DNA of 64,000 bases, from assembly GCF_009674675.1 (NCBI RefSeq), contig NZ_WKJC01000001.1, forward strand, positions 999,031-1,063,030, in the 5' to 3' direction. This stretch comes from Kangiella sp. HZ709 (lineage in GTDB: Bacteria; Pseudomonadota; Gammaproteobacteria; Enterobacterales; Kangiellaceae). The notes beneath the pieces were generated by a model that ran no database searches, was not told where the DNA came from, and saw only the letters and a program-made list of their open reading frames with translations. This document shows, one piece after another, positions 21,639-48,400 of this stretch (positions within the stretch are counted from its first letter, which is position 1; each line of letters starts with the position of its first letter). The position numbers were made by a program, and so were the translations under genes.

Positions 21639-22820
21639 TTAATCCGCTTGCTTGCGCAAGAATGCTGGGATATCCAAAAAGTTATCAACATCACTACCAA
21701 CCGCCATTTTCTGCTGTGACTCTTTAGCAAGCCTTTCAGTTTCGACAGAACCCGCTTGTTGACGTAAGGCTGGTGGTAAGTCCAACTTATTATAGTCCAT
21801 CTCGCCCGAGTTCTTGCGGGCAGTTTCTTGGTTATTGCTGACCAAACGCATACCGGCTTCTTGCCCCAAACCTGTTGCAACCACGGTAACACGGATTTCA
21901 TCACCCATGTTTTGGTCAATAGCAGTTCCCACTACCACGGTAGCATCTTCATGAGCAATATCTTCAATTACTTCACAAACTTCAGAGAATTCATCAATAG
22001 TGAAATCTTCATTAGCCGTAATGTTAACTAAAATACCGCGCGCTCCTGATAAATCAACATCTTCCAGTAATGGACTCGCCACTGCCATATCGGCAGCAAT
22101 TTGTGCACGACCTTCGCCAGAAGCAATCCCAGTACCCATCATCGCTTGGCCTTGCTCAGCCATCACAGTTCTTACGTCAGCGAAATCTACGTTGATTAAA
22201 CCAGGGCATGTGATCAACTCAGCGATGCCTTGTACCGCACCATGTAAGACTGAGTTTGCTGATGCGAAAGCTTCCGTTAAGCGTAAACCTGCAAATTGAG
22301 CCACCAACTTATCATTTGGAATGATAATTAATGAATCAACGACATTGCGCAATTCATCTATGCCCTGTTCTGCTAACAGCATGCGTTTTTTGCGCTCAAA
22401 CTTAAAGGGCTTAGTAACCACAGCAACCGTTAAAATGCCCATTTCTTTTGCTATATCAGCAATAACTGGTGCCGCGCCAGTACCTGTGCCGCCGCCCATA
22501 CCTGCGGTGATAAATACCATGTCTGCACCTTGTAGTGCTTCCATGATAATTTCGCGGTCTTCCATTGCTGACTGACGACCCACTTCTGGGTTAGCACCGG
22601 CGCCTAGACCACGGGTAATGTTTTGACCAATTTGGATAGTGGTCTTTGCAGAAGAAGCCTGCAAAGCTTGTGCATCCGTATTGGCACAAATAAATTCAAC
22701 ACCATCGATGTTGGCTTGCACCATGTGCTCAACGGCGTTTCCACCACCACCACCAACACCAATAACTTTAATGACAGCGCTGTTTTGACAACTGTCTACT
22801 AACTCAAACATATTAGGCAT
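21639..22820 (-). CDS. ftsZ: Cell division GTPase FtsZ
   Basis: Tubulin homologue that polymerises into the Z ring. 393 residues: N-terminal IKVIGVGGGGGNAVEHM, tubulin signature GGGTGTGAAPVIA, the T7 loop region NVDFADVRTVMAEQGQAMMG, a variable linker, and the conserved C-terminal peptide FLDIPAFLRKQAD that binds FtsA, ZipA and ZapD. It follows ftsA by 67 bases and starts at ATG 22818-22820 after AAGGGGAAAGG. Confidence 0.99.
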   Translation of the reverse strand: MPNMFELVDSCQNSAVIKVIGVGGGGGNAVEHMVQANIDGVEFICANTDAQALQASSAKTTIQIGQNITRGLGAGANPEVGRQSAMEDREIIMEALQGADMVFITAGMGGGTGTGAAPVIADIAKEMGILTVAVVTKPFKFERKKRMLLAEQGIDELRNVVDSLIIIPNDKLVAQFAGLRLTEAFASANSVLHGAVQGIAELITCPGLINVDFADVRTVMAEQGQAMMGTGIASGEGRAQIAADMAVASPLLEDVDLSGARGILVNITANEDFTIDEFSEVCEVIEDIAHEDATVVVGTAIDQNMGDEIRVTVVATGLGQEAGMRLVSNNQETARKNSGEMDYNKLDLPPALRQQAGSVETERLAKESQQKMAVGSDVDNFLDIPAFLRKQAD

Positions 22821-29690: not shown

Positions 29691-31027
29691 GCCTGTGCCC
29701 TCGCCAATTTTGAAAATTCATTGCCTCGTTCTTGATAATTTTTATACTGATCAAGACTCGCACAAGCGGGTGACAATAAGACTAGAACTTGATTAAGAGA
29801 TTTGCTTTCAATAATTTGTTTGGCTTTAGCTAATGCTTGCGCCATATTCTCTACAACATGGCTTTTTTCTTTGCTTAACTCTGCAATTTTGTTAGCGTCT
29901 TTACCAAATACTACTACTGAATTAACGGTAGTTTTTAGACTATTTTTTAAGCTACTAAGGTCAACACCTTTGGCATCACCGCCTGCAATTAAAATGATAT
30001 TTTCAAATAAAGGTGCAAAACTAGTTAAAGCTGCAATAGTTGCACCAACATTGGTGGCTTTTGAATCATTAATATAACTTACATTTTCAGTCTTAAAGAC
30101 TAACTCACAGCGATGCTCTAAGCCTCGATATTTTTTGACAGCGCTTATCACTTTATCGTTAATTTCTATGCCCGACTGTTCTACCAATGCCAGTGCAGCT
30201 AATGCGTTTAACGCATTATGAGTACCCTGTAGTTGTAAATCCTCTATAGGCAATATTTCTTGCTCTGATTTAGATAAAACCTTTCTATCCAAATCCAAAC
30301 AATAATCTGGTGATATCTTTGATGATTTCAAACCAAAGCTCACATTTTTATCGGCTTCAGAGTTAGCAAAGGTATTCTCATCATCCACATTAAATAATCT
30401 TTTTTTAGCATTCAAATAAATACATTTTTTAGCATTGATATAATCTTGATAGCTGTCGTATCGATCTAAATGGTCTTCACTAATATTTAAAATGGTTGCC
30501 ACTTCTGAATTTAATGAGTCAGTCGTTTCCAGCTGAAAGCTCGACAATTCCAACACAACATAATCACATTTTTGCCCAAGTGTTTCTAAAGCCGGAAAGC
30601 CGAAATTGCCAGCCGCAACAGCTGAAAAGCCTGTTGCACTAATTGCATTTGCCACTAGATCCGTCACGGTGCTTTTACCGTTAGATCCAGTTATCGCAAC
30701 CACTTTTGCCGTGTTTACTTGCGCAAACAATTCAATATCACCCACAATCGCAACGCCTTGCTCAGCTGCTGTTTGGATATCTGGTTGATTGATTGAAATA
30801 CCTGGACTCACTACTAATTCATCGTAGTTTACAAAAAGTTCTGGCTGCCATTCTAAGTAGCTCTCTGCTGCAAATTGATCCAGCTCTTCTATTCCTGGAA
30901 CTTCTTTTCGTGTATCCATTACATTAAAAAACTGTCCCGCTTTCTTTAAAAAGCGGGCAACAGACAAGCCAGTTTGACCCAAACCTAGAATCAAACGCTT
31001 TTTATCTGTTAGTTGTTTAATGCTCAT
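29684..31027 (-). CDS. murD: UDP-MurNAc-L-alanine--D-glutamate ligase
   Basis: Adds D-Glu to UDP-MurNAc-L-Ala. 447 residues: LILGLGQTGLSVARFL at the N-terminus, P-loop VAITGSNGKSTVTDLVA, SSFQLETTDSL, the carbamylated-lysine region SEDHLDRYDSYQDYINAK, and NDSKATNVGAT in the C-terminal domain. The next gene upstream in the operon is mraY, 26 bases away. Confidence 0.98.
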   Translation of the reverse strand: MSIKQLTDKKRLILGLGQTGLSVARFLKKAGQFFNVMDTRKEVPGIEELDQFAAESYLEWQPELFVNYDELVVSPGISINQPDIQTAAEQGVAIVGDIELFAQVNTAKVVAITGSNGKSTVTDLVANAISATGFSAVAAGNFGFPALETLGQKCDYVVLELSSFQLETTDSLNSEVATILNISEDHLDRYDSYQDYINAKKCIYLNAKKRLFNVDDENTFANSEADKNVSFGLKSSKISPDYCLDLDRKVLSKSEQEILPIEDLQLQGTHNALNALAALALVEQSGIEINDKVISAVKKYRGLEHRCELVFKTENVSYINDSKATNVGATIAALTSFAPLFENIILIAGGDAKGVDLSSLKNSLKTTVNSVVVFGKDANKIAELSKEKSHVVENMAQALAKAKQIIESKSLNQVLVLLSPACASLDQYKNYQERGNEFSKLARAQAC

Positions 31028-35101: not shown

Positions 35102-36833
35102 GACTGACACCTCCTACTGCAAATGCTTTTACCGTTTGCTGGTCTGGTGCAACGTTCATCAAATCTAATGCTTTGTCGGCCACTTCAGAAAAAATTGGTG
35201 CAGATACTGTGCCACCGTAATAGGCATCGCCTGCTGGCTCATCAACCATAACCACGATCGCTAACCTTGGAGCTGTTGCCGGTACCAAACCTGCAAATAC
35301 CGTAACGTACTCGTCACCATAACCGCCGGTTTTTGCAACTTTTCTAGCTGTACCTGTTTTTCCCGCTACTCGATAACCTTCCACTCTTGCCTTTGTACCT
35401 GTACCACCATCAGCAACTACATTTTCCATCATGCTCACAACTTCTTGAGCGATGGTCGAATCAATTACTTGTTCACCTTGCTCTAAACCATTTTGCTTGA
35501 TGATAGTTAAAGGTCGTTTTATTCCATTCGCACCTAATACACTGTAAGCCTGTGCTAATTGAATAGAGCTCACCTGAAAACCGTAGCCAAACGAGAATGT
35601 CGCTTTTTCTATATCGGACCAATTATCTCTTGGCCGAAGGACACCTTTGGTTTCACCTTGCACGCCCAAGCCAGTGGACTTACCAAACCCAACCTTATAA
35701 AAACTGTTCAAAAACTCTTGATCAGATAAACTTAATGCAAGTCGACTTACTCCCATGTTGCTGGATTTTTTTATGATCCCACCCAAATCTAGAACGCCAT
35801 AATTTCTTGGGTCTCTGACCGTTTTTCTATTCAATTTCATACGACCTGGAGAAGTATCAATGGTTGATTGCGGCTGATACTTACCGCTCTCTAAAGCACT
35901 TACAATAGTCAATGGCTTTACCGTAGAGCCCGGCTCAAATAAATCGGTAATTGCACGATTCCGAGTCATATTTGGAAAGCGTGAATCTGAGCGATTAGGA
36001 TTAAAAGAAGGCTGACTTGCCATGGCTAATACTTCGCCAGTATCGACATCGACTACAACTACCGAGCCACCTTTAGCATTATGATTCAATACTGTTTTTT
36101 TCAATTCACGATATGCTACCGCTTGGATTCGAGAATCGATACTCAATTGCAAATCATTGCCTTGCTCTGCTTCCGCCAATACACCGCGCTCTTCAACTAC
36201 TCGGCGATATAAATCAACCACCACTTTTTCTTTTCCTGGCTGCCCCGTCAAATAGCTATCAAAAGCTTTCTCAACACCTTCTAAGCCCTTGTCATCCACG
36301 CCAGTAAAGCCGACTAAATTTGCCGTGACCTCCGCACTTGGATAATACCGGCGGTACTCAGATTTCAAGTTCACACCATTTATCGCTAAACGCTTTATAA
36401 ATACCGCATTATTAGGATCTAGGTGTCTTTCTAACCACACGAAGCGCCTGTCAGCTCTATCTAAAATCCATTTTGATAATTCTTTCTCATCCCGATTAAG
36501 TGCTTTAGCAAAACCTTTCCATGCAGGACTTGTTAAAACTGATTTATCTTTCAACAAAGTTTTAGGGTCAATCCATAATGATTCAATGGGAACAGACCGA
36601 GCTAACTCTTCACCGTTTCTATCTAGAATTAATCCACGGTGTGAAGAAATACCCTTAACTCGAATCGAGCGTGACTCACCGGCTTTAGCTAAATCAGTTG
36701 CATTCCAAACTTGTAAATAAGCAGTTCTAATTATTAAACCAATAAAGCATGCAGACACCACAAACAGCATGGTGACGTATCGCCACTTGCAATCAGGTAC
36801 TGTCATAATTTTTCGGTTACGTATTTTCTTCAC
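35094..36833 (-). CDS. ftsI: Septal peptidoglycan transpeptidase FtsI (PBP3)
   Basis: Class B penicillin-binding protein acting with FtsW. 579 residues: short basic cytoplasmic tail, one membrane helix (about 20-40), pedestal domain (LILDRNGEELARS...), and a transpeptidase domain with SxxK in EPGSTVKPLT, SxN in SSNMGVS and KTG in VAGKTGTARK. The predicted start is a GTG at 36831-36833; an ATG nine codons downstream (36806) is the alternative, and neither has a strong ribosome site. It begins 2 bases after ftsL. Confidence 0.97.
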   Translation of the reverse strand: MKKIRNRKIMTVPDCKWRYVTMLFVVSACFIGLIIRTAYLQVWNATDLAKAGESRSIRVKGISSHRGLILDRNGEELARSVPIESLWIDPKTLLKDKSVLTSPAWKGFAKALNRDEKELSKWILDRADRRFVWLERHLDPNNAVFIKRLAINGVNLKSEYRRYYPSAEVTANLVGFTGVDDKGLEGVEKAFDSYLTGQPGKEKVVVDLYRRVVEERGVLAEAEQGNDLQLSIDSRIQAVAYRELKKTVLNHNAKGGSVVVVDVDTGEVLAMASQPSFNPNRSDSRFPNMTRNRAITDLFEPGSTVKPLTIVSALESGKYQPQSTIDTSPGRMKLNRKTVRDPRNYGVLDLGGIIKKSSNMGVSRLALSLSDQEFLNSFYKVGFGKSTGLGVQGETKGVLRPRDNWSDIEKATFSFGYGFQVSSIQLAQAYSVLGANGIKRPLTIIKQNGLEQGEQVIDSTIAQEVVSMMENVVADGGTGTKARVEGYRVAGKTGTARKVAKTGGYGDEYVTVFAGLVPATAPRLAIVVMVDEPAGDAYYGGTVSAPIFSEVADKALDLMNVAPDQQTVKAFAVGGVSHD

Positions 36834-36835
36834 AA

Positions 36836-37174
36836 TTAGTTTTCTTTCTTTATTTCAATAATGACTTCAGAATTTTTATCTAAATGCTTCATTTTTAATT
36901 TTTCTATCGCAATTTTTTCAATACGACTATGCTCTGCTAACGCACTTTGTTCTAACCGTAGCTTTTGCCAGTTCAGATCGAGTGCCGTTTGTTCATCTTG
37001 CAATTTATTTAACTCACTAGTAGCAATTCGAAATTGATGTGTTTGATTAGCTACTAAAATTGCTGAATACACCACTAATGCGCCGATAAAGATTAATCCA
37101 AAACGTCGGCTAAAAGCCGCCACCAAACTATAGAACGGCCATAAACGGTTGGTTTCACTGTTTACTTTAGCCAT
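36836..37174 (-). CDS. ftsL: Cell division protein FtsL
   Basis: Small bitopic divisome protein that pairs with FtsB through a coiled coil and activates FtsWI. 112 residues: one membrane helix (about 25-46) and a leucine-zipper-like periplasmic part, TSELNKLQDEQTALDLNWQKL. It is placed between rsmH (5-base gap) and ftsI, its standard position. Sequence conservation of FtsL is low, so the call rests strongly on position and topology. Confidence 0.94.
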   Translation of the reverse strand: MAKVNSETNRLWPFYSLVAAFSRRFGLIFIGALVVYSAILVANQTHQFRIATSELNKLQDEQTALDLNWQKLRLEQSALAEHSRIEKIAIEKLKMKHLDKNSEVIIEIKKEN

Positions 37175-37179
37175 AATAG

Positions 37180-38166
37180 TTAACCTATTTTTTCCGCCAC
37201 TCGCATGACAGCACTTCGCGCACGATTATTACGAGCCAACTCTTCTTCTCCAGCTTTAACAAATTTGCCGACTTTTTTCATACGACGCTCGATCATGTCT
37301 TCAGTAATAGGCAATCCTGCTGGAAAATCTTTGCCTTTTTCTTGGTCTCGAATAAACTGTTTTACAATACGGTCTTCTAAGGAGTGAAAACTGATAGCGA
37401 CAATTCTTCCGCCAATCGATAATGATTCTAGTGATTGCTCTAACACTGCTTTCAAATCATCCAGTTCGCTATTGACAGCAATACGAATAGCTTGAAAACA
37501 ACGCGTTGCAGGATGCTTATGCTTTTCCCAGCGTGGATGTGCTTCTGAAATAATATTGGCTAATTTTTTTGTGCTATCGATCGTTTCTTGTTGACGCTTT
37601 TCGCAAATAATTCGAGCGATCCGCTTGGCATATCGTTCTTCACCATAAGCCTTAAAGACAAATATCATGTCTTCTTCTTTAGTCAACGCAATCCATTCTT
37701 GCGCCGTGATTCCTTTATTAGAATTCATCCGCATATCTAAAGGACCATCATTCATAAAGCTAAAGCCACGCTCAGCTTGATCCAACTGCGGAGAAGAAAC
37801 GCCAAGGTCCATTAAAATTCCATCAACTTTTCCTGACCATCCACGTTTTTCAATTTCTTGAGATAATAAAGAAAAGCTGTCATGGACTATTTCAAATCGC
37901 GGATCTTGATCTGCTAATTCATTGGCGACAGCAATGGCCTGTGGATCTTTATCGAATGCTAAGAGGCGAGACTTTTGACCTAATTTGGAAAGCAGATGGC
38001 GACTATGGCCTCCTCGGCCAAAAGTACAATCAATAAAGATACCATTTATCTTTTGTGAGCTTTCACTGCTGCCTATTGTATCGTTACCAGGCAGTTGCTT
38101 ACCTTGCACGAGAGCCTCCACTGCTTCGTTAAGTAGAACTGCATCATGTGGCTGTTGAGGGTTCAT
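37180..38166 (-). CDS. rsmH: 16S rRNA m4C1402 N4-methyltransferase RsmH
   Basis: SAM-dependent methyltransferase for C1402 of 16S rRNA, the same nucleotide modified by RsmI. 328 residues: FIDCTFGRGGHSRHLL (SAM site), GILMDLGVSSPQLDQAERGFSF, GPLDMRMN, and the C-terminal NNRARSAVMRVAEK. It starts 2 bases after mraZ. Confidence 0.98.
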   Translation of the reverse strand: MNPQQPHDAVLLNEAVEALVQGKQLPGNDTIGSSESSQKINGIFIDCTFGRGGHSRHLLSKLGQKSRLLAFDKDPQAIAVANELADQDPRFEIVHDSFSLLSQEIEKRGWSGKVDGILMDLGVSSPQLDQAERGFSFMNDGPLDMRMNSNKGITAQEWIALTKEEDMIFVFKAYGEERYAKRIARIICEKRQQETIDSTKKLANIISEAHPRWEKHKHPATRCFQAIRIAVNSELDDLKAVLEQSLESLSIGGRIVAISFHSLEDRIVKQFIRDQEKGKDFPAGLPITEDMIERRMKKVGKFVKAGEEELARNNRARSAVMRVAEKIG

Positions 38167-38168
38167 CG

Positions 38169-38624
38169 TTAGAAGCTCAACTCCGGTAAACTATCCGGAT
38201 CCAATGGCATTTCAGCCATCGCCGCCACATCGTCACTAATTTTCTGGTGCCAGTTTTCTTCTTTCCAAATTTGGAAAGTGTTTCCCTGACCGGCAAGCAT
38301 CAACTCTTTTTCAAGTTGCGCATGCTCTCTTAACACTGGCGGTAATAAAATCCGGCCATTCCCATCAATTTCATGCTCTGAAGCATGGCCAAGCAACATT
38401 CGCTTTACTCGGCGTTGCATGGGATGAGTGCTAGAGAAACTTTCTAGTTTGGATTCCAATTGCTCCCAATGAGGCAATGGGAACAATAAAAGACAAGGAT
38501 CAATCAAATCAATGGTGACCACAATTTGATTAGCGCAGACATCATGAAAACGCTGACGGTATTTCGCTGGTATTGCGATCCGTCCTTTTGCGTCCATATT
38601 GATGGCACTTGCGCCTCTAAACAT
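38169..38624 (-). CDS. mraZ: Transcriptional regulator MraZ
   Basis: AbrB-fold DNA-binding protein that heads the dcw cluster and represses it in E. coli. 151 residues with two MraZ repeats: MFRGASAINMDAKGRIAIPA and HASEHEIDGNGRILLPPVLR. It binds direct GTGGG-like repeats with 10-base spacing, and exactly such an array lies upstream at 38708-38742 over the promoter, indicating autoregulation of the whole cluster. Confidence 0.98.
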   Translation of the reverse strand: MFRGASAINMDAKGRIAIPAKYRQRFHDVCANQIVVTIDLIDPCLLLFPLPHWEQLESKLESFSSTHPMQRRVKRMLLGHASEHEIDGNGRILLPPVLREHAQLEKELMLAGQGNTFQIWKEENWHQKISDDVAAMAEMPLDPDSLPELSF

Positions 38625-38707
38625 TATAATAACCCATTGTTTTATTTAAATTTTAAGGAAAAAGCTTGTTGCAAATAGCCATTTTAGAGTGTTAAAACTA
38701 ACTGCGA

Positions 38708-38742
38708 TCCACTTTATGACACTTTTTCCCACTTCTCGCCAC
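38708..38742 (-). promoter_or_regulatory. MraZ operator, four direct repeats
   Basis: On the minus strand, GTGGC, GTGGG, GTGTC and GTGGA are each separated by exactly five bases (10-base period), reading from 38742 down to 38708. This matches the known MraZ site architecture of GTGG(G/T)-type repeats. The first copy overlaps the -10 hexamer of the promoter. Confidence 0.88.
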
Positions 38743-38769
38743 TATAGGAGTTTGATTACTTTTTTGCAA
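38741..38769 (-). promoter_or_regulatory. Main dcw promoter upstream of mraZ
   Basis: TTGCAA (38769-38764), a 17-base spacer and TATAGT (38746-38741) on the minus strand. Transcription would start near 38734, inside the MraZ operator, giving a leader of about 110 bases. The remaining bases 38770-38940 hold nothing I recognise. Confidence 0.7.
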
Positions 38770-38940
38770 GTAAATTAGCTTCTAAAAATGTGAAAAATGT
38801 CTTTATTTTCCAAAGACTTAGCCAACGTTAGTGAGCGCACACAAACTAAGAAAAATAAATTTGTTATTTTTCATTTGATTACGGATATAAGTTAGAAACT
38901 ACTTTAAGTTAGGGAAATTTTAAGATAAGGAATTCTTTAT

Positions 38941-39468
38941 TTAGGTCCGAATTTCTGACCAATGATTCAATAAATGCATAACATGCGCGATTTCGTAATC
39001 GCGCTTATTGAGTTTGCCGTATGCAAAATGCTGCTGCAATTGTCCGGGATAGGTTTCAAAAGCTTGAAAAGCAGACTTCAGGTTGAAGATGGCCTCTTCG
39101 ATAGTTTTTGAAGCATTCGGATATAAGGCACCGGGGATTTCTTCGGCTAAATTATGACTCATAGCGCCATTGGCTTTAAATAGAGCAAATGCGCTAGTGC
39201 CAATGGTACTTTTAAACGCAGATGATTTATGCTCAGGAAAGCCGATCATCGAGAACTCAATGCTTTTAGCACAGTGATCAAAAATATGCGTCAACTTCCA
39301 TTGACCATTTGACTGAATGGTTGTGCTATCGATGGAGTCTAAAAGATCCAATGCAAGCTCAACTCTAAGCTTATCTGAAGCGCTAGAAAGCTGAGTCCAT
39401 GTAAACCCTGCGCCCGCTAATGCCGCAACAGAAATACCAGTACCTAGTAAAAATTTTCTACGATTCAT
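38941..39468 (-). CDS. DUF1569 (DinB-like) exported protein
   Basis: 175 residues. An N-terminal Tat-like or Sec signal (MNRRKFLLGTGISVAALAGAGF) is followed by a DUF1569 domain of the DinB four-helix superfamily: WKLTHIFDHCAKSIEFSMIGFPEHKSS (cited in two parts) and a C-terminal HVMHLLNHWSEIRT. The conserved His residues (HIFDHC, HVMHLLNH) suggest a metal site as in DinB-like enzymes, but the function is unknown. It follows a lipoprotein gene by 10 bases on the same strand, so the two are probably co-transcribed. Confidence 0.72.
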   Translation of the reverse strand: MNRRKFLLGTGISVAALAGAGFTWTQLSSASDKLRVELALDLLDSIDSTTIQSNGQWKLTHIFDHCAKSIEFSMIGFPEHKSSAFKSTIGTSAFALFKANGAMSHNLAEEIPGALYPNASKTIEEAIFNLKSAFQAFETYPGQLQQHFAYGKLNKRDYEIAHVMHLLNHWSEIRT

Positions 39469-39478
39469 TCAAAGCCAA

Positions 39479-40102
39479 TTACGGAATAAAGATAAGAGAT
39501 TCTGTCGGCGTGTGGGAAGTCGAACCACCAATTTGATTAAACCTGAAATCATCTTCAAAAGCTTTAATAATTGAGTTCTTAGAGATCGAAGGATACTTAT
39601 CTAGAAAAAGCTGTGAATCTCGGTGGTAGGCATTTATATGGAATACATTAGCATCTACTTGCCACATGGCGGTGGACTTTGCTGAATCGAAATGATAATT
39701 ACCAATATATACAACCTTTCCTGCATCAACATTAAATTCAATGTCAATTGGTTCAGATGAGGAATTATTATAACTGCCAGAATTAACTCCCCATCTGAAT
39801 ACTTTGTATTTACCCGCAGGCATTTTGATAGCAAATAATTTTCCTTTGGCATCTTTACTATCAATATCTTTTGTTTCAAACAAACTGGCAGGAGTACCAT
39901 AAGCAAACTTTACAAACTCACGCTTAGTTGGTGTTCCAAAAGTTAAACTATAATCAGAAATGACTCCATCGACAGTAAGAGTTAAAAAGACTAAACCTTC
40001 ATTTGAGCTTTTATTTAATTGATAATTTTTACTGACATTAGATACGGCGCAACCTTGAAATAGAAGCACTGCAAATAAAATTACGGATAATTTAAAGTTC
40101 AT
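39479..40102 (-). CDS. Hypothetical lipoprotein
   Basis: 207 residues from ATG 40100-40102, with AGGA about 8 bases upstream; a TTG two codons earlier is less likely. The N-terminal signal peptide ends in a lipobox-like LFQGC (Cys18). The rest is predicted beta-rich (LVFLTLTVDGVISDYSLTF, KYKVFRWGVNSGSYN, GKVVYIGNYHF), reminiscent of DUF2846-like surface lipoproteins, but I do not recognise the family with confidence. It lies just downstream of rnpB and upstream of the DUF1569 gene. Confidence 0.6.
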   Translation of the reverse strand: MNFKLSVILFAVLLFQGCAVSNVSKNYQLNKSSNEGLVFLTLTVDGVISDYSLTFGTPTKREFVKFAYGTPASLFETKDIDSKDAKGKLFAIKMPAGKYKVFRWGVNSGSYNNSSSEPIDIEFNVDAGKVVYIGNYHFDSAKSTAMWQVDANVFHINAYHRDSQLFLDKYPSISKNSIIKAFEDDFRFNQIGGSTSHTPTESLIFIP

Positions 40103-40129
40103 GATCAATCCTGCAGATTATTGTGAATA

Positions 40130-40495
40130 AGTGAAGCTGGCCGATAAGCCGGATTCTGTCGTGGACAGTCATTCGTCTAGGCCATTGATCACTCAATGGC
40201 TCCAGCAACCTACCCGATTCCAACGCGAGCCACGCCGTACGGAATCCTATTTGGTCTTGCTTCAGGTGGGGTTTACCTCGCCATATACTGTTACCAGCAA
40301 TGCGGTGCGCTCTTACCGCACCATTTCAACCTTACCTGTGAACACTAAAGTGAACCATCGGCGGTATATTTTCTGCTGCACTTGCCGTCGACTTTCGCCG
40401 CCCAGGCGTTACCTGGCACCCTGCTCTATGAAGTCCGGACTTTCCTCTCTCTTTTTACCCGAAGATAAAAGGACAGCGACTGTCTGGCCAGCTTC
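40130..40495 (-). ncRNA. rnpB: RNase P RNA, class A
   Basis: Catalytic RNA that matures tRNA 5' ends. On the minus strand the 5' end GAAGCTGGCCAGACAGTCGC pairs with the 3' end (ATCGGCCAGCTTC). The universally conserved GAGGAAAGTCCGGAC, CAGGGTGCCAGGTAACGCC, GGTAAGAGCGCACCG, GGTAAACCCCACC and GACAGAATCCGGCTTATCGG are all present in order. The length of about 366 bases fits a gammaproteobacterial class A RNA. Ends are set by similarity and are good to a few bases. Confidence 0.96.
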
Positions 40496-40496
40496 T

Positions 40497-40514
40497 GTGC
40501 GGAATTTTCCGCAC
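40497..40514. repeat. Inverted repeat at the rnpB 5' end
   Basis: gtgcgg and ccgcac arms around aatttt, directly before the mature rnpB start. It may shape the precursor or the promoter region; no good -10/-35 pair was found at the expected distance. Confidence 0.35.
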
Positions 40515-40557
40515 TTAAGGGTAAAAACGCAAGCTATAATTGAATTAATGTCAGGCA

Positions 40558-40584
40558 TAAAAAAAGCCCAAAAAATGGGCTTTT
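40558..40584 (-). terminator. Intrinsic terminator after the 128-residue membrane protein gene
   Basis: Stem aaaagccca/tgggctttt, loop aaaaa, followed on the minus strand by a run of eight T. It isolates rnpB from the upstream gene. Confidence 0.85.
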
Positions 40585-40603
40585 CAATATTATTTGTAGG
40601 ACG

Positions 40604-40990
40604 TTAGCGTCTTTTAACGAAAATACTGGTCACGTTAGAGCCTTTTAAAGACAGTTGCTCTACTGGTTCATCTGCTTCAACTTCAGATTGATAGTAGTTT
40701 CGGTTTTTTTGAACATGTTGATCGAGTTTACGCACCCACTGAATAGCATGATTGGTCTTATGCACATCATCGTAACGACCATTAACCGCTTCAGCATATT
40801 CCATAATCAATTGTTTTGCTTCTATTTCAGCTGGAGTTTCTATTTCATCAGACACAGGTCTATCTAAAGCAGACAATATTGTATACCCTCGGTCCTGCGT
40901 TTTAGCGAACAGATAACCTTTGATAAAAACAAAAAGGCTTACCCCCATTATCGCTAAAGGTGTAATGATTAGTATTAAATCTGTCATCAT
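40604..40990 (-). CDS. Hypothetical membrane-anchored protein
   Basis: 128 residues: a short N-terminus and one hydrophobic helix (about 4-27), then a soluble cytoplasmic part rich in charged residues (ALDRPVSDEIETPAEIEAKQ, HKTNHAIQWVRKLDQHVQK) and a basic C-terminus. No family recognised. Two adjacent ATG codons (40990, 40987) can start it. It is 31 bases downstream of another small membrane protein gene and ends at a strong terminator. Confidence 0.6.
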   Translation of the reverse strand: MMTDLILIITPLAIMGVSLFVFIKGYLFAKTQDRGYTILSALDRPVSDEIETPAEIEAKQLIMEYAEAVNGRYDDVHKTNHAIQWVRKLDQHVQKNRNYYQSEVEADEPVEQLSLKGSNVTSIFVKRR

Positions 40991-41021
40991 TTCTATAATT
41001 TTATTTGAATCTCTTTATAAA

Positions 41022-41504
41022 TCAATGCTTAGCCGACATACGACTTCGTATAGACTTTACCAGAAGTAAGGCTATAGGTGCAAATAAATATGCAATTATA
41101 AGCCAGTTTACTGCGGTACTACCTACTGAATAGATTGATTTGAAAAATGACCACTCAGTATAATGCCTTTCAAAATATCGACCTACTTCAAGAGTAACAA
41201 CACCTAAAATTAAAAAACTTATGGGCACAGTAACTTTTTGTAGGTTTGGATATCTCTTTGTTTCTCTAGCTATAATGTAAATCAATAACAAAGAAATCGT
41301 AGCCCAAGTTAAATACCAAAGGTATTCTGCGTAAGGAAGCTTTAAAACACTTGTAAAAATTAGCCTTGAAAAAAGTTCGATCGCTAAAATATATATAGTC
41401 ACTCTGAACAAAGGCATTACATTTTGTAATAAGTAAATTAGAGTTATTATTATTAGTGCCAATAGATAACTATCTATAAAGCTAAGTGCAACCTCTAAAT
41501 TCAT
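41022..41504 (-). CDS. Hypothetical polytopic membrane protein
   Basis: 160 residues with about five predicted membrane helices (near 10-30, 33-53, 60-82, 92-110 and 130-152) and a basic C-terminus (KSIRSRMSAKH). No recognised domain. AT-rich coding sequence like its neighbours. The following gene on the same strand is also membrane-anchored, so the two may form a unit. Confidence 0.6.
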   Translation of the reverse strand: MNLEVALSFIDSYLLALIIITLIYLLQNVMPLFRVTIYILAIELFSRLIFTSVLKLPYAEYLWYLTWATISLLLIYIIARETKRYPNLQKVTVPISFLILGVVTLEVGRYFERHYTEWSFFKSIYSVGSTAVNWLIIAYLFAPIALLLVKSIRSRMSAKH

Positions 41505-41572
41505 AAAAGCTAACTAACGGTTAAAAAGCACATTCTGTATATGATACACCGAAAGCTATATCGTTCGTACCA

Positions 41573-42076
41573 CTAAACTAATACTTTAGGCTCAACACCA
41601 CCGCCGCCTACTGCTATCGGCTCAACACCACCGCCGCCTACTGCTATCGGCTCAACACCGCCGCCGCCTACTGCTATCGGCTCAACACCACCGCCGCCTA
41701 CTGCTATCGGCTCAACACCGCCGCCGCCTACTGCTATCGGCTCAACACCGCCGCCGCCTACTGCTACCGGCTCAACACCACCGCCGCCAACTGCTATCGG
41801 CTCAACACCGCCGCCGCCTACTGCTATCGGCTCAACACCGCCGCCGCCTACTGCTACCGGCTCAACACCGCCGCCGCCTACTGCTACCGGCTCAACACCG
41901 CCGCCTCCAACTGCTATCGGCTCAACACCGCCGCCGCCTACTGCTATCGGCTCAACACCGCCGCCATCTACTGCTACCGGCTCAACACCGTCTTCGAAAG
42001 TTTGAGCAGAAAGATTGAAAGATAAAGAACAACTGCTGACAATCAAAGTTGCCACGAATAAATTACGGATATTCAT
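41573..42076 (-). CDS. Secreted 10-residue tandem repeat protein
   Basis: 167 residues: a signal peptide (MNIRNLFVATLIVSSCSLSF...SAQ, cleaved about residue 25), then TFED, then 13 copies of the decapeptide GVEP(I/V)AVGGG and a truncated last copy GVEPKVLV. Only Ile/Val at position 5 and one Asp vary. Repeats of hydrophobic Val/Ile-Pro-Gly type recall elastomeric or surface-filament proteins, but this is not a recognised family; RTX and other known calcium repeats do not match. An AGGGGC ribosome site precedes ATG 42076. Copy number can change without breaking the frame. Confidence 0.75.
   Translation of the reverse strand: MNIRNLFVATLIVSSCSLSFNLSAQTFEDGVEPVAVDGGGVEPIAVGGGGVEPIAVGGGGVEPVAVGGGGVEPVAVGGGGVEPIAVGGGGVEPIAVGGGGVEPVAVGGGGVEPIAVGGGGVEPIAVGGGGVEPIAVGGGGVEPIAVGGGGVEPIAVGGGGVEPKVLV
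41591..41980. repeat. Tandem array of 13 x 30-bp units
   Basis: Direct repeats of exactly 30 bases, plus-strand unit ctcaacacc(a/g)ccgccgcc, then (t/a)actgctat/ccgg. Most units differ at only one to three positions, mostly silent or Ile/Val changes. They are GC-rich in an AT-rich region. The uniformity suggests recent expansion or gene-conversion-type homogenisation. The array lies wholly inside the coding region above. Confidence 0.97.
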
Positions 42077-42205
42077 GAATTAAGCCCCTAAGCTATATGA
42101 GAAGTAGTTAATATAATAAAGGGCTAAGGTAACACAACATTTGTAAAATAAATGTTAACTGTTGGGAATTTTTACACTCAACCCATTGATTTTATGAGCG
42201 TAATG

Positions 42206-43060
42206 TTATAAAGAGGACTCTTTTAAATCCAATGCTATTTGATATATTTCTTTTTTAGATATGCCGGTAAAATTAGAGACTATTTTGCTGGCTTTGTTTG
42301 GCGGTAATTCTTTCAGCAACTCTTTTAGTAAGCGCTCACTATCAATGCTTGCATTATTTGCTTTTTTATCTACTCCCGATATCATCAAGACAAATTCGCC
42401 CTTCGATTGGTTATGATCTTGTTCTAATATGTCGACCAATTCAATCAAGGGAGCATCTAGAATAGTTTCAAAGGTTTTTGTGAGCTCTCTAGCCACTACC
42501 GCATGCCTATTACCTAAGGTTTCTAGAGCATCTTGGAGACTGGCAGCAATACGATGGGAAGATTCATAAAAAACCATCGTTTCGGTTCTATTTCCCAATT
42601 CTAGATATCGTTGTTTACGAGAACTGGATTTTGCCGGTAAAAACCCAAAAAAACTGAAGCTATCGGTAGGTAAACCAGCAACAGACAAGGCTGTAATAAT
42701 AGCGCTAGGACCAGGAACAGGGCTCACCTTATAACCTTGTTCGCGCAAAGCTCTCACCAACTTAAAGCCAGGATCGCTAATTAAGGGAGTTCCTGCGTCC
42801 GAAATAAGTGCAATAGACTCATTGGCATCCAACTTGGCAGCAATTTGGGCAACCCGACTTTCTTCATTGTGCTCATGCAAAGATATCATGGGCGTATTAA
42901 TCCCATAATGCTGACATAATCGCTGACTATGGCGAGTATCTTCAGCCGCAATTAGAACCACTTGCTTTAAAGTTTCAATCGCTCGGGCAGAAATATCTTC
43001 TATATTCCCAATCGGGGTTGCTACCACGTAGAGGCAGGCTGAATTTAAATCATTCTTCAT
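42206..43060 (-). CDS. rsmI: 16S rRNA 2'-O-ribose C1402 methyltransferase RsmI
   Basis: SAM-dependent tetrapyrrole-methylase-fold enzyme that methylates C1402 together with RsmH. 284 residues: LYVVATPIGNIEDISARAIE, AAEDTRHSQRLCQHYGI, LISDAGTPLISDPGFKLV, PGPSAIITALSVAGLPTD, and the C-terminal RsmI helical domain. It is divergent from lpoA, the conserved arrangement in gammaproteobacteria. Confidence 0.97.
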   Translation of the reverse strand: MKNDLNSACLYVVATPIGNIEDISARAIETLKQVVLIAAEDTRHSQRLCQHYGINTPMISLHEHNEESRVAQIAAKLDANESIALISDAGTPLISDPGFKLVRALREQGYKVSPVPGPSAIITALSVAGLPTDSFSFFGFLPAKSSSRKQRYLELGNRTETMVFYESSHRIAASLQDALETLGNRHAVVARELTKTFETILDAPLIELVDILEQDHNQSKGEFVLMISGVDKKANNASIDSERLLKELLKELPPNKASKIVSNFTGISKKEIYQIALDLKESSL

Positions 43061-43393
43061 GGCGACTCATACATAATGAACTAGTTAATAGTGACTCTTG
43101 TTAAAGGTTTATTCATAAAGTTTTAATACAATAAGGCTTTAAAAGTCTGATATCAGACAACATTAGTAAGGTGTAAAAAACTGCGAACTTTTTGGATACG
43201 AGTCCGAAAAGTCGATTACTACCTTTGCCTAAATTGTTAATAGAGCTTAGAATATCAATGAATAGATAGGCAACATAACTTCTTCATTTATTTGTTATTT
43301 TACCCGACATTGCGAGTCATAGGAATGATAAATAATTGGAACTTATACTAGACTTTATAAGTCAGTAACTAATATCAACCTGAGTATATAAGC
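43061..43393. promoter_or_regulatory. rsmI-lpoA divergent intergenic region
   Basis: 333 bases with no gene. It has a perfect 14-base palindrome, gtctgatatcagac (43145-43158), an imperfect hairpin near 43183-43213 (ctttttgga/tccgaaaag), and a perfect 7-base inverted repeat, acttata/tataagt (43341-43362), about 30 bases before the lpoA start. Any of these could be an operator; I cannot assign a regulator. Confidence 0.45.
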
Positions 43394-45232
43394 ATGACCA
43401 AAAACCACGCTTGCAAAGCTTTTATTATCAGCCTCAGCATCTTTTTGCTCGCGGCTTGCGTTACGAATCAACAAAGTAAACGCAGTAACTCGAATATTTA
43501 CGGCGCTAGCTCAGGTGAATCGGCAGAGTTCTATTTAGCAGAAGCGCAAAAGTATGAAAATGACCAAGCCGCAAATTTCAAGCTAAAGGCTGCTTCTGTT
43601 TTCGCACAACAACAAAGATTTGAGCAAACCTATGAAACCATTGTTAGCTTTCAACCAACCCAACTAACTCCCAATAAGCGCAACGCATATTACCTATTGA
43701 AAGGCGAGTCAGCTTTAAGGCAACAAAAACCGTTCGAGGCAATTCGCGCATTACAATCCGTTACCAGTCCCGAGTTGCAAAGCCCTGCCTGGAATTTGCA
43801 CTACCAACTAATTTCAGCGGATGCCTTACAAGCCAATCAAAGATACGTTGATGCTGCTATTACTCGAATTGAAGCCAAAGATTTAATTAAGGATAAATCT
43901 CAGTTTGAGCAACAAATGCAACTAGCTTGGCAAGAACTGTCTCAATCACCATTGGGCGCTCTTGAATCAAAACGCAGCCGTGCTGAAAGTTATGATGCAA
44001 TGGCTTGGCTAGATCTTGCTATCACCAATCAACGCTTTGCAAATAATGCTAGGTTATTATCAGAAGGCTTAAACTCATGGAGCAAGACCTATCCTGAGCA
44101 TCCAGCTTATCAATATCTATCTACAGAATCTATGACAGTTAGAGATATAGAATTTCTTGCACCCAAAAAAATCGCCTTAATAATTCCTTTGTCAGGCAGG
44201 TTTTCTAGTGTTGGTGGCGCCATTCGCGATGGCTTTTTAGCAGGTTATTTCCAAAGTCGTCAAATCCAAGGCGAACAGCCAGAAGTGGTGATTTATGACA
44301 GTGCTAATGGAGAATCTATTGAGCAGATTTATCAAAACGCAATGTTCGATGGCGTTGAAATGGTGGTAGGTCCTTTACTAAAAAATAATATCGATGAGCT
44401 AACTCGTTTTAACGAGCTGCCAATCCCAACTTTAGTACTTAATCGTTTAAGTAGCGATTTCGCGCCCGCCAATATGTATCAATTTGGCTTGCCAGTTGAA
44501 GATGAAGCAACCCAAATCGCCCGTTACGCCATGCGTAATGGTCAAACTAGGGCCTTCGTTATAGACGCCGAACCCAGCGTCGGTCAGCGTGCTATGCAAA
44601 GCTTCACTCAAGCTTATGAGGAGCTTGGCGGCACGGTAGTGCAAACCGCAACCATAGGCAGAAACCAAGATCCGAAAGAAGAAATTACTCGCTTACTAGG
44701 TGTGGACAAAGTTGAGCAGCGTACGGATGAATTGCAGAACTTATTAAACTTACCAATCGAATCTTCTGGTCATGGTAGTGCTAACGCCGATGCAATATTT
44801 TTGATTGCAAATGCCAAGCGTGCACGAATCATTAAGCCTTACTTAAATTATTATTACGCTTACAATTTACCGGTGTATGCCACTTCTAATATCTATAATG
44901 GTACTAGTAACACCCGCATTGATAATGATCTCTCAGGAATCAGATTTACCGACTCGCCTTGGATGCTATCCACAAACAAGGCCATCTCAAAGCTGAAAAA
45001 TAACTTAGCAAAGACTTTACCCAGTAGCAGCAAAAACCTCGGCCGCTTCTTTGCATTAGGTCATGATGCTTTTATGGTGGTTCCCGAAATAGGACAACTA
45101 TCAGCGCTTCCAGACTCCGCAATGGAAGGTATTAGCGGACTGTTAAGCATTGATTCCTATGGCCGAATTAAGCGCCAACTGGCTTGGGGACATTACGTTA
45201 AAGGTGAAGTGCAGAACTATATCGAAAGATAA
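43394..45232 (+). CDS. lpoA: LpoA, outer-membrane activator of PBP1A
   Basis: Outer-membrane lipoprotein that reaches through the periplasm to stimulate PBP1A. 612 residues: signal peptide with lipobox LLAAC (Cys22), an N-terminal helical TPR-like part (about 45-250), and a C-terminal periplasmic-binding-protein-like domain (KIALIIPLSGRFSSVGGAIRDGFLAGYF, cited in parts; ADAIFLIANAKRARIIKPYLNYYYA). Placement between rsmI (divergent) and yraN is the conserved gammaproteobacterial order. Confidence 0.95.
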   Translation: MTKNHACKAFIISLSIFLLAACVTNQQSKRSNSNIYGASSGESAEFYLAEAQKYENDQAANFKLKAASVFAQQQRFEQTYETIVSFQPTQLTPNKRNAYYLLKGESALRQQKPFEAIRALQSVTSPELQSPAWNLHYQLISADALQANQRYVDAAITRIEAKDLIKDKSQFEQQMQLAWQELSQSPLGALESKRSRAESYDAMAWLDLAITNQRFANNARLLSEGLNSWSKTYPEHPAYQYLSTESMTVRDIEFLAPKKIALIIPLSGRFSSVGGAIRDGFLAGYFQSRQIQGEQPEVVIYDSANGESIEQIYQNAMFDGVEMVVGPLLKNNIDELTRFNELPIPTLVLNRLSSDFAPANMYQFGLPVEDEATQIARYAMRNGQTRAFVIDAEPSVGQRAMQSFTQAYEELGGTVVQTATIGRNQDPKEEITRLLGVDKVEQRTDELQNLLNLPIESSGHGSANADAIFLIANAKRARIIKPYLNYYYAYNLPVYATSNIYNGTSNTRIDNDLSGIRFTDSPWMLSTNKAISKLKNNLAKTLPSSSKNLGRFFALGHDAFMVVPEIGQLSALPDSAMEGISGLLSIDSYGRIKRQLAWGHYVKGEVQNYIER

Positions 45233-45253
45233 TGTATTCTTAAGACCTTGTTT

Positions 45254-45649
45254 ATGGAAAAGGATAGCCAAGCGATAGGACAAGTAGCAGAAGCTTGGTG
45301 CAAAGATTATCTTTGTACCAAAGGGCTACAGTTTGTTGAACAGAACTACCACAGTCGCTTTGGCGAAATCGATCTGATTTTTTTAGACTGTAATAGCGAC
45401 CCAGAAACTCTAGTATTTGTAGAAGTGCGTTATAGAGCTAACTCCGATTATGGAACTGGTTCTGAAACCGTTACTATTTATAAACAGCAGAAACTAATAA
45501 AAACTGCACAAGTTTTCTTACAAAAAGAACGGGGATTTCTCAACTATAATGCTCGATTTGATGTAGTATCGATTTCAAGTGCTAATGACAATAAAGAAAG
45601 TTTTGAAGCTGATTGGCAAAGCAATGCTTTTCAAGCCAACGCTTGGTAA
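45254..45649 (+). CDS. yraN: YraN family (UPF0102) endonuclease-like protein
   Basis: 131 residues with an RNase H/PD-(D/E)XK-type fold: QAIGQVAEAWCKDYLCTKGL, HSRFGEIDLIFLD and LVFVEVRYR carry the conserved acidic and basic residues. Biochemical function in gammaproteobacteria is not established. ATG 45254 (MEKDSQ) is preferred over an upstream TTG at 45248. It lies in lpoA-yraN-diaA order. Confidence 0.92.
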   Translation: MEKDSQAIGQVAEAWCKDYLCTKGLQFVEQNYHSRFGEIDLIFLDCNSDPETLVFVEVRYRANSDYGTGSETVTIYKQQKLIKTAQVFLQKERGFLNYNARFDVVSISSANDNKESFEADWQSNAFQANAW

Positions 45650-45665
45650 ACTAACAAAAACCTAA

Positions 45666-46265
<600 letters not shown>

Positions 46266-46269
46266 TTAA

Positions 46270-46722
46270 ATGAAAACATTATTTTTTATAACTTTTTTAA
46301 TCATTCTAGCTAGTTGCTCAACAACAAAAGAAACGACACCAGTAGATTCTAAAAATCTTATTGAGCCTATTATCCCATCTTATTCCCTTAACTCTGTCCC
46401 AGTTTATCCAGGTTGTGATACCTCTATAAAAAATAAAGATTTGATAACATGTTTGTCTAAAGGGGTAGGGAATCATGTAAGAAGCAATTTCAATATGAAT
46501 TATTTAATCAATAATAATATTCAAAAACGTAGAATCATTGCTTCATTTGTAATTAATAGTAACGGTAAAGTTGCAAAAGTCACTGCTAACGAAAAGAACC
46601 CTATATTATTAGCAGAAACAAAAAGAGTATTGTTTTCTATCCCTCGGATGATACCGGCAAAAAAAAATAACCAAAATGTCGCTACCTCTTTTGCACTCCC
46701 AATAACTTTAGTCTTAGAATAA
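46270..46722 (+). CDS. Lipoprotein with TonB-C-like domain
   Basis: 150 residues: signal peptide with lipobox LASC (Cys16), a short spacer, and a domain resembling the C-terminal domain of energy-transducing TonB-family proteins: VPVYPGCDTSIKNKDLITCL, RRIIASFVINSNGKVAKVTA and SIPRMIPAKKNNQNVATSFA. There is no transmembrane anchor or Pro-rich spacer, so it cannot act as a classical TonB. It sits 4 bases after diaA and 13 before dolP, breaking the usual diaA-dolP junction. More AT-rich than its neighbours. The domain style is common in Bacteroidota. Function unknown. Confidence 0.68.
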   Translation: MKTLFFITFLIILASCSTTKETTPVDSKNLIEPIIPSYSLNSVPVYPGCDTSIKNKDLITCLSKGVGNHVRSNFNMNYLINNNIQKRRIIASFVINSNGKVAKVTANEKNPILLAETKRVLFSIPRMIPAKKNNQNVATSFALPITLVLE

Positions 46723-46735
46723 AACCGGAATTATC

Positions 46736-47263
46736 ATGCTCTCAACTCAATTACTTAGAAATGTATTTATCTATTTACTAACGATATTTGTTTTAGCGGG
46801 TTGCACCACTTTTGGTACTATCTTTGAAGACAATAGTATCGAATCTCGTGTTTATAGCTTACTGAAAGATCTCGAAGCAGAAAATCAGCCTGCCAAGATC
46901 GAGGTTGATAGCCATAACCTATATGTTTTAATTTACGGCCAAGTGCCTAATGAATCAGTTAAAACCCAAGTTAGTCAGATCATCACAGGCGTGCCAGAAA
47001 TTCGCAAGGTTTTTAATGAACTTAGAGTAGGCAGCCCCGATGATGTTAGTGGTTTTGGCGATACTTGGATATCAACTAAGGTACGCTCAAGCTTGACTGC
47101 TGAGAAAGGACTAGATTCAAAGCGAATTACCGTGCGCACAGAAAATAAAGAAGTATTCTTAATGGGCTTAGTCACTAGAGCTGAAGGAGATAAAGCTGCT
47201 TTAGTTGCGCGAAATATTAGCGGTGTAAATAAGGTCGTAAAGATATTTGAGTACATTGATTAA
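46736..47263 (+). CDS. dolP: DolP, dual BON-domain outer-membrane lipoprotein
   Basis: 175 residues: signal peptide with lipobox LAGC (Cys23), then two BON domains (about 45-105 and 120-172; KIEVDSHNLYVLIYGQVPNE and KRITVRTENKEVFLMGLVTR). In E. coli it binds anionic phospholipids and supports outer-membrane integrity and BAM. The lpoA-yraN-diaA-dolP order is conserved, here with one inserted gene. Confidence 0.93.
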   Translation: MLSTQLLRNVFIYLLTIFVLAGCTTFGTIFEDNSIESRVYSLLKDLEAENQPAKIEVDSHNLYVLIYGQVPNESVKTQVSQIITGVPEIRKVFNELRVGSPDDVSGFGDTWISTKVRSSLTAEKGLDSKRITVRTENKEVFLMGLVTRAEGDKAALVARNISGVNKVVKIFEYID

Positions 47264-47275
47264 GCTTTCTCTTTA

Positions 47276-48400
47276 ATGCTGAGCTTTACTCAACATATAA
47301 TCATAATAGGCGCTGTTCAAGGAATACTACTATTCGTATTATTAAACCTTGATAGTAGAGCAACCACAGCTAATCGACTTTTAGGAGTATTCTGCTTACT
47401 GCTGGCTTTATACTTTTTATCTCCCTTTATAGCGCTTAATGCCGAACTCAATGCTTTTTCTGGATTATTAGGTTGGGGCTTTTTCTTACCGGCTTCTTTT
47501 GGTGCTCTTAACTTTTTGTACTATCGCCATGCTGTTACCAATACGAAGCTCAGCTGGAAAGATTTATGGCATTTAACCCCTGTTCTAATTTGCTATTTAT
47601 TAAACTTACATTGGTTAACCGAATCCACCGAATATCGACTTAACCTATTGCAAACCTTTGATCCAGTACCTACTGGATTTAAAACCAGTATATTAATCTT
47701 TTATTTTCAAGCCTTTGCATATAACGGATTTAGTGCATGGCTTATCTTTCGATATCAAAATAAAGCGCAAAACACTTTAGCCAATTTTAATCCTGATATA
47801 TTTAGATGGCTTTGGGCTTTTTTAACCATAACACTTATCATTTGGAGCTTTAAAATTATCGCTGATTTTACCAGCTTAAAGTACCTATCTCGATGGGCAG
47901 ATATTTTGATCGTAGTGTTCATCTATAGCGTAGCAATTGCCCAGTGGCGAAACCCTAAGTTATTTAGAGTTGAGCAATTACAAAGTAAACCTACTAGTAG
48001 CGACAGTCATGATCTCTATACAAGCACACACAAATCTTCGCCTGGCTCTTTAGATGAAGGCACCAGAGAAGTCTTATTAAAAAGTACCAAAGAGTTTATG
48101 CAACAGGACAAGCCCTTTTTAGATAGTCAATTAACTTTAAGTAGTTTAGCTGAATCTATTGGTTTAAGTACCCATCACTTATCAGAAGTATTAAATCAAC
48201 AAGAAGGAAAGAACTTCTACCAATTCGTCAACCAATACCGAGTAAGTTACTTAATAGAACAGCTTAAAAAAGATAAAAAAGCCAAAATACTGGATCTGGC
48301 TTTAGCTTCAGGTTTTTCTTCCAAAAGCACTTTTAACGCAGTTTTCAAGCAATTTACCGATCAAACTCCTAGTCAATTCCGCAAAAGCCTCACTTGTTAG
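47276..48400 (+). CDS. Membrane-embedded AraC-family transcriptional regulator
   Basis: 374 residues. The N-terminal half (about 1-225) has about seven hydrophobic helices; the C-terminal part (about 270-374) is an AraC/XylS HTH domain: LTLSSLAESIGLSTHHLSEVL...GKNFYQFVNQYRVSYLIEQL...LALASGFSSKSTFNAVFKQFTDQTPSQFRK (quoted in pieces). Such 7TM-AraC proteins are thought to sense a signal at the membrane and activate neighbouring genes. It starts 12 bases after dolP, probably with its own promoter. The inverted repeat gtacgaat/attcgtac (48410-48431) lies right after its stop and before two membrane-protein genes. Confidence 0.85.
   Translation: MLSFTQHIIIIGAVQGILLFVLLNLDSRATTANRLLGVFCLLLALYFLSPFIALNAELNAFSGLLGWGFFLPASFGALNFLYYRHAVTNTKLSWKDLWHLTPVLICYLLNLHWLTESTEYRLNLLQTFDPVPTGFKTSILIFYFQAFAYNGFSAWLIFRYQNKAQNTLANFNPDIFRWLWAFLTITLIIWSFKIIADFTSLKYLSRWADILIVVFIYSVAIAQWRNPKLFRVEQLQSKPTSSDSHDLYTSTHKSSPGSLDEGTREVLLKSTKEFMQQDKPFLDSQLTLSSLAESIGLSTHHLSEVLNQQEGKNFYQFVNQYRVSYLIEQLKKDKKAKILDLALASGFSSKSTFNAVFKQFTDQTPSQFRKSLTC

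Follow-up and report, generated by a model that had tools for sequence, protein, structure and literature searches.

A decapeptide-repeat protein of Kangiella sp. HZ709 appears to derive by amplification from a short peptide gene linked to a small membrane protein

The window analysed here, a stretch of 64,000 nucleotides from Kangiella sp. HZ709, contains on its minus strand a gene (gene A, 41573-42076) whose product consists almost entirely of decapeptide repeats. To judge from its relatives, many of which hold a single motif copy, this repeat protein has arisen by amplification of a short, single-motif peptide gene. Gene A is followed by two genes for membrane proteins, B and C, and the existence of an A-B-C gene module is well supported. 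In the searches made, the gene families and the module fit no named kind. Our preferred reading, which we hold tentatively and at not quite even chances, is that of a peptide/membrane-protein module in which the A peptide would be recognised by B at the periplasmic face, for sensing or immunity, with the repeats as its multi-copy or multivalent form.

The linkage of motif-bearing A genes to B was examined at 79 B places, namely 48 of the 60 places found in another family of the order and all 31 places in Kangiella, using at each locus the three longest open reading frames (ORFs) just upstream of B. Controls were 321 genes from 20 stretches of six genomes of the other family and 201 genes from 12 stretches of the window's genome. 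The strict pattern G.?G.?.?EP, derived from Kangiella, matched 24 of the 48 loci in the other family and 27 of the 31 in Kangiella; among the respective controls it matched 1 gene of 321 and 3 of 201 (51 of 79 loci versus 4 of 522 genes in total). With a relaxed pattern the figures are 35 of 48 and 27 of 31 loci versus 4 of 321 and 3 of 201 controls, one of the four control matches in the other family being a further, previously missed module; with the loosest criteria they are 41 of 48 and 28 of 31 loci versus 24 of 321 and 13 of 201 controls. Fisher values for this linkage represent non-independent tests, as the loci are related. Altogether, A was assigned at 70 of the 79 loci, by hand in genomes G802 and G708. 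The nine loci without an assigned A are those of G745, where a 25-amino-acid (aa) A was recognised later, and G016, where A is interrupted by a contig end, together with two of G011 and five of G595. Among 14 further B places, ten possess a motif-like A by eye, L227 and L231 weakly.

The motif shared by most of these genes has the consensus G-N-G-x-G-x-E-P-(P), derived from two sets of 59 and 30 different instances, of which the full-length ones (49 and 28) were counted. The shortest A is a bare peptide of 19 aa, the longest comprises 261 aa of repeats, and two or more motif copies are found in 23 of the 70 A genes. Repeats with different units arose independently in many lineages. A is under purifying selection, with dN/dS of about 0.08-0.35 in 7 pairs, one of which (G000/G014) was aligned across unequal repeats. 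The gap between A and B varies from overlap to about 166 nt, and between 0 and about 50 residues separate the last motif from the stop.

In the window, the module lies entirely on the minus strand, with B and then C downstream of A, rnpB beyond C, and rsmI upstream of A:
41573..42076, minus strand: gene A, 167-aa repeat protein (precursor); an ORF with counterparts between rsmI and B in G011 and G013-G016
42002..42076, minus strand: N-terminal signal-peptide-like region of A, residues 1-25; a hydrophobic stretch seen by eye
41600..41989, minus strand: 13 full units GVEP(I/V)AVGGG of 30 bp each; repeat finding and translation
41573..41599, minus strand: terminal partial unit GVEPKVLV and stop; translation
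41022..41504, minus strand: gene B, 160-aa membrane protein with five predicted helices and the signature WY...R..[DE]R...Y...P..N; family alignment and AlphaFold2
40604..40990, minus strand: gene C, 128-aa protein with a single predicted membrane helix at its N-terminus and a helical part that presumably lies in the cytosol; low-confidence model
42206..43060, minus strand: flanking rsmI (16S rRNA methyltransferase); TIGR00096, 269.7 bits, cut-off 167.9
40129..40495, minus strand: flanking rnpB (RNase P RNA, class A); RF00010, 324.3 bits

A plus-strand ORF at 40131-40607 is antisense to rnpB and is probably no gene.

Gene A starts with ATG and encodes 167 aa by ORF reading. Residues 30-159 are 13 complete decapeptides GVEP(I/V)AVGGG, followed by a terminal GVEPKVLV, so that the near-perfect repeats of the original prediction are borne out by translation, the exact number of 13 being that of a single assembly. 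In the first unit D replaces G, and the 13 units deviate from their consensus by four I-to-V changes, one G-to-D change and seven synonymous codon changes. The homogeneous 30-bp repeat that had been described was recovered by Tandem Repeats Finder as an array at 41589-41990 with period 30, 13.4 copies, 95% matches, 0% indels and a score of 713, against 70 for the second-best tandem array of the window. Three weaker arrays were reported by the same program at 21426-21468, 22460-22504 and 30388-30447. By eye, and with one hydropathy window at a lowered threshold, the N-terminal sequence MNIRNLFVATLIVSSCSLSFNLSA resembles a Sec signal peptide, in agreement with the secretion claimed earlier. The mature protein contains 37% G and 23% V (52 and 33 of 142 residues), is mildly hydrophobic (grand average of hydropathy, GRAVY, 0.72) and strongly acidic (net charge -16), and possesses neither a GxxxG motif nor a membrane-like stretch (maximum 19-residue hydropathy 1.03). 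Neither VPG nor GG.G.D occurs in it, and no Pfam or NCBIfam family was found for it, six relatives of A giving at most matches below the cut-off. As far as these searches reach, the claims that it belongs to no known repeat family and is an undescribed molecule are supported.

Repeat-bearing A genes are found at the same locus in 5 of the 19 other genomes of the genus (G011, G013, G014, G015 and G016), which disposes of an isolated assembly artefact. The G016 locus is split over two contigs, as the assembly breaks inside the repeat array. One Kangiella counterpart each contains eight units of 9 aa (VGGGVEPVS), five units of 11 aa (VGGHGGVEPVA), six units of 12 aa (VGGQGGGVEPVA) and five units of 19 aa (LSVGSGNGSNGGGGVEPLA), and the 10-aa unit GNGGVEPSIA is present at least 12 times in an array interrupted by a contig end. 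The unit is in frame, as described earlier, and copy numbers differ between species (13, 8, 6, 5, 5 and, in the interrupted array, at least 12); unit lengths across different Kangiella are 9, 10, 10, 11, 12, 19 and 28 aa. Units are near-identical within a species and unlike between species, which points to amplification and homogenisation on repeated occasions. The presumed signal-peptide cleavage site of G013 and G015 (A-x-A|VGG) lies exactly at unit 1, and where one unit joins the next the sequence is again A|VGG.

B is present in 19 of the 20 genomes of the genus, the window's own included, and in all 18 near-complete ones (completeness of 90% or more, contamination of 5% or less). At the rsmI locus of six other Kangiella (L039, L040, L041, L043, L048 and L051), a different secreted-looking protein of 164-187 aa replaces A-B-C, and the module is located at other sites in one to three copies. 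At the Kangiella sites away from rsmI, A usually has one motif copy and a length of 51-77 aa, ending for example in YTGNGGGEPEEDPTEKKRD; exceptions are one cassette of G006 (4 motif copies) and one of G007 (8 copies). Tandem divergent cassettes are found in G004 and G007. Beside the single-copy cassettes of three other Kangiella lies a rhomboid-like gene that, by reading, we take to resemble rhombosortase (L014 2349-2969, L023 2357-2974 and L024 444-1061), and an HTH (helix-turn-helix)-like regulator is near it in each case. G011 possesses two extra B-like genes without recognisable A, L087 1459-1926 (minus strand) and L090 1498-1974 (plus strand), near what we presume, by reading, to be plsY-like and tsaD-like genes.

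Beyond the genus, a wider B profile (E up to 0.01) identified B at 60 places in 43 of 246 genomes of the other family; the weakest of these matches, some with stops, may be spurious. At E up to 0.001, the count for the order was 33 of 394 genomes, including 18 Kangiella and one doubtful case (G925), whose match holds two stops; a class-wide sample gave B in 1 of 369 genomes, namely the window's own. Outside the genus, a peptide gene lies upstream of B in most cases, and its motif resembles G-N-G-x-G-[I/N]-E-P-P, for example GNGAGIEPPK three times in G275 and once in G630, GSGSGNEPP five times in G751, and GNGGGTEPP once in G720. In three genomes of one genus, A is a bare peptide with a length of 19, 21 or 23 aa (MLNFPLLGGDGDGKEPPGK and similar sequences). 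L184 (G646) shows an independent amplification, a 213-aa A with eight NGPGVRP-type motif copies. G266 contains nine B places in one genome; two tandem B genes without visible A were observed in its L225 (G266:C4:92001-104000).

The module is also carried by Peduoviridae phages, namely Pseudoalteromonas phage C5a (gp5-gp7), whose 39-aa A ends in NGGGGGGVEPPKLN, and ACA1, nearly the same B being found also in ACA2 and proACA1-A. C5a has integrase and repressor genes, and ACA1 a repressor gene. On an IMG/VR contig (L130), which by reading appears Mu-like, the A-B-C of G266 recurs close to an endolysin-like gene, and the two B proteins are identical. In 274 genomes sampled from the class, a degenerate DNA pattern for GNG[GA]G[IV]EPP gave 0 matches; another pattern led to one viral contig that was rejected on reading as a GC-rich, unrelated-looking chance match. 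Nothing was found in viral-contig scans with the B of L124 and alignment A6, tblastn against phages with five other B proteins, among them that of the window, returned no matches or chance-like ones, and a plasmid search gave weak matches only (E 0.2).

AlphaFold2 models B as five long helices (mean pLDDT 88.3, pTM 0.79). In 44 aligned B proteins, the charge count (K+R minus D+E) is -0.86 at the N-terminus, +1.34, -0.45, +1.91 and -0.11 in loops 1 to 4, and +2.27 at the C-terminus, which argues for five spans with the N-terminus outside and the C-terminus inside. Under this predicted topology, the conserved residues W63, Y64, R109, D/E112, R113, Y125, P130 and N133 are located on the outer half. 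A profile built without Kangiella recovers the window B at E 1.5e-14 (100,000 sequences assumed), and one built without the phage and two double-glycine members recovers the phage C5a B at E 7.9e-12, both values being slightly generous owing to the shared alignment. These held-out matches indicate that the B proteins of Kangiella, phage and the remaining genomes belong to one family.

Comparisons of B with known proteins gave few leads. Of the 44 B proteins, 28 match the unnamed family phrog_31674 with an E of 0.01 or lower, the best value being 2.9e-12. Against the PDB, nothing significant was found by sequence or by fold (best E 0.98, a viral rhodopsin, TM 0.30). The best match among viral structure models, to uncharacterised phage proteins (E 0.019, TM 0.74), is marginal and suggestive only, and Rheinheimera phage barba_12-9E ranks second (E 0.08). 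Bac_rhodopsin of Pfam, which had matched 4 of the 17 B proteins of a first alignment (best E 0.0025), was dropped, no Pfam family reaching 0.01 in any of the 44. NCBIfam matches were obtained for one B member each to TsoY (1.5e-4), MAG0110 (0.0019) and archaetidylserine synthase (0.0029); in the accessible part of PMC13188914, TsoY appears as a table row and the module is not shown. A PADLOC scan for known anti-phage defence, covering the 44 B proteins, gave a best E of 0.15. The model of C is poor (pLDDT 65.2, pTM 0.39), with one N-terminal helix and a poorly modelled helical part; by a rule applied without a control gene set, C was recognised at 62 of 79 loci (34 of 48 and 28 of 31).

In the module as we picture it, gene A would provide a peptide rich in glycine, with the motif G-N-G-x-G-x-E-P-(P) as its active part. 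The window species has amplified A to 13 copies in frame, preceded by what looks like a Sec-type signal peptide, and presumably exports the product. The motif conserved in A and the conserved, apparently outward-facing patch in B suggest that B, a putative five-helix inner-membrane protein, recognises A at the periplasmic face. C, where present, may be a one-helix partner of B reaching into the cytosol. The pair might sense the peptide (self or kin recognition, signalling) or protect against it (immunity), and amplification would raise the number of peptides per precursor or the valency. Phage carriage and tandem cassettes fit signalling, self-recognition and immunity alike. By eye, the leaders of A look like export signals in many members, Sec-like in window A, G013-G016, L102, L106 and L120, and double-glycine-like in phage C5a, G266, G790 and several of G595. 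A C39-peptidase transporter (PF03412) is present in 3 of 3 double-glycine genomes tested, and no match was found in G000 and six other Kangiella (0 of 7).

Several observations weigh against recognition of an exported A by B. The C39 transporters are unspecific, being found also in 9 of 10 other genomes tested from the other family (12 of 13 overall). No leader is visible in the 19-23 aa A of G132, G100 and G081, short leaderless A peptides are likewise found in G708, G802 and G745, and a common type of A has an FlgM-like N-terminus (weak, E 0.0094) and no signal peptide. B genes without recognisable A are present at two places in G011 and five in G595, and at 4 of the 14 further B places, all in G266 (L223, L224 and two in L225). 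Leaderless A and A-less B genes together speak against a simple export-and-sense scheme. In addition, the conserved B residues S31, D71 and H82 misfit a site on the outer face, the Kangiella-free profile recovers the extra G011 B at L087 only with a weak E of 4.6e-4, the rule used recognises no C at 17 of the 79 loci, and no promoter-like site was found upstream of window A on its own strand.

The alternative that fares best, though we consider it rather unlikely, is a toxin/immunity system in which A is a bacteriocin-like peptide and B, with C, confers self-immunity, the repeats raising dose or avidity. The tandem divergent cassettes of G004 and G007, the nine B genes of G266, the double-glycine-like leaders and the carriage by phages with lysogeny genes (C5a, ACA1) and by the viral contig L130 with its endolysin-like gene would all suit such a system. 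Toxin/immunity pairs usually diversify in the peptide core; here the conserved part is the peptide core itself. Several A cores are moreover hydrophilic (GRAVY -1.41 for C5a and for the single-copy Kangiella form), the mature A of the window, with its net charge of -16, has neither GxxxG nor a membrane-like stretch, and the cassette holds no exporter. A small membrane immunity protein is known in Cdz, according to the part of PMC5380434 available.

It is improbable that A is an unreleased small subunit or cofactor of a B-C membrane complex, its copies merely raising avidity. The leaderless forms of 19-25 aa and the frequent adjacency of A and B are what such a subunit would show, but many members carry Sec-like or double-glycine-like leaders by eye and 13 copies would be odd for a stoichiometric subunit. 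We consider it quite improbable that A is a regulatory leader ORF, an arrest peptide controlling the translation of B through ribosome stalling at EP(P). Secretion-monitoring leaders have variable N-termini, as A does, and A is a short ORF directly 5' of a membrane protein gene with PP in many motifs. Kangiella motifs are, however, mostly EP without a second P (GVEPIA, GGEPEE), up to 13 copies are present, the distance from the last motif to the stop and the A-B gap vary as described above, and four A-B junctions show no RNA structure beyond chance (z -0.51 to 0.98). Very improbable, finally, is the stand-alone tunable elastic, adhesive or matrix-type surface protein of the original prediction: a secreted-looking, low-complexity product rich in G and V would suit it, but many relatives at the same position hold one motif copy, some being bare peptides of 19-25 aa, A lies mostly directly upstream of B and is linked to B and C, there is no VPG or RTX-like GG.G.D, and a one-copy 19-aa A is hard to see as an elastomer or matrix; conservation concerns the G-rich EP motif and not its repetition.

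The repeat protein may be regarded as the visible member of a module otherwise hidden as short, unnamed ORFs. As B is found in all near-complete Kangiella, scattered in another family and on phages with lysogeny genes, the module may matter in cell-cell or phage-host interplay, and copy numbers that vary naturally from 1 to 13 lend themselves to a comparison of dose or valency. Should the outcome be an ordinary peptide-receptor or toxin-immunity pair, the module would fall within a known kind. No description of the A-B-C module was found in searches of open-licence literature, judged mostly from listings, and in the accessible text of the ACA1 paper (PMC10612066) the terms gp5, gp6, gp7, TIGR01847 and bacteriocin do not occur. 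The ACA1 record itself mentions that HHpred matched its A weakly to TIGR01847.

Among known systems, the Cdz system of Caulobacter, as described in the part of PMC5380434 available, comprises contact-dependent glycine-zipper bacteriocins, small glycine-rich exported proteins encoded beside the small transmembrane CdzI, much as the glycine-rich A is encoded beside the small membrane protein B. The Cdz toxins are hydrophobic with GxxxG zippers and have a type I exporter in their cluster (PMC5380434, same part), whereas window A is acidic with 0 GxxxG, and no exporter-like ORF was noticed on reading the ORF list and family matches of its neighbours rsmI, B, C and rnpB. Double-glycine/C39 peptides, which include class II bacteriocins and ComC-type pheromones, resemble A in the leaders of C5a, G266, G790 and G595, and a relative of A gave a weak match to ComC (PF03047, E 0.057, below cut-off); window A differs in its Sec-like N-terminus, and the seven Kangiella have no C39 match. 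Elastin-like VPGXG and RTX GGxGxD nonapeptides are both absent from window A, which has no Pfam match, and its 13 motif copies, together with the lack of junction RNA structure beyond chance (n=4), set it apart from a SecM-type arrest leader. The GG-rich motif near the C-terminus of A and the rhomboid-like gene beside the cassettes of L014, L023 and L024 recall GlyGly-CTERM/rhombosortase, but by reading A has no membrane helix after the GG motif, and no rhomboid-like ORF was noticed at 36000-48000 of the window when the ORF list was read, no profile being run. The family matched by B, phrog_31674, is a PHROG family of unknown function. It is possible, if doubtful, that the module represents an undescribed class of peptide communication or kin recognition in marine gammaproteobacteria and temperate phages, with a GNGxGxEPP core, a kinase-less five-helix receptor and, in some members, multi-copy precursors comparable to alpha-factor. 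In the yeast alpha-factor precursor, a signal peptide precedes a tandem series of nearly identical short peptides. Window A, although bacterial and without a spacer bearing known protease sites, has the same arrangement of a secretion signal (by eye and hydropathy) and tandem copies, and by this analogy it would work most like a multi-copy peptide precursor.
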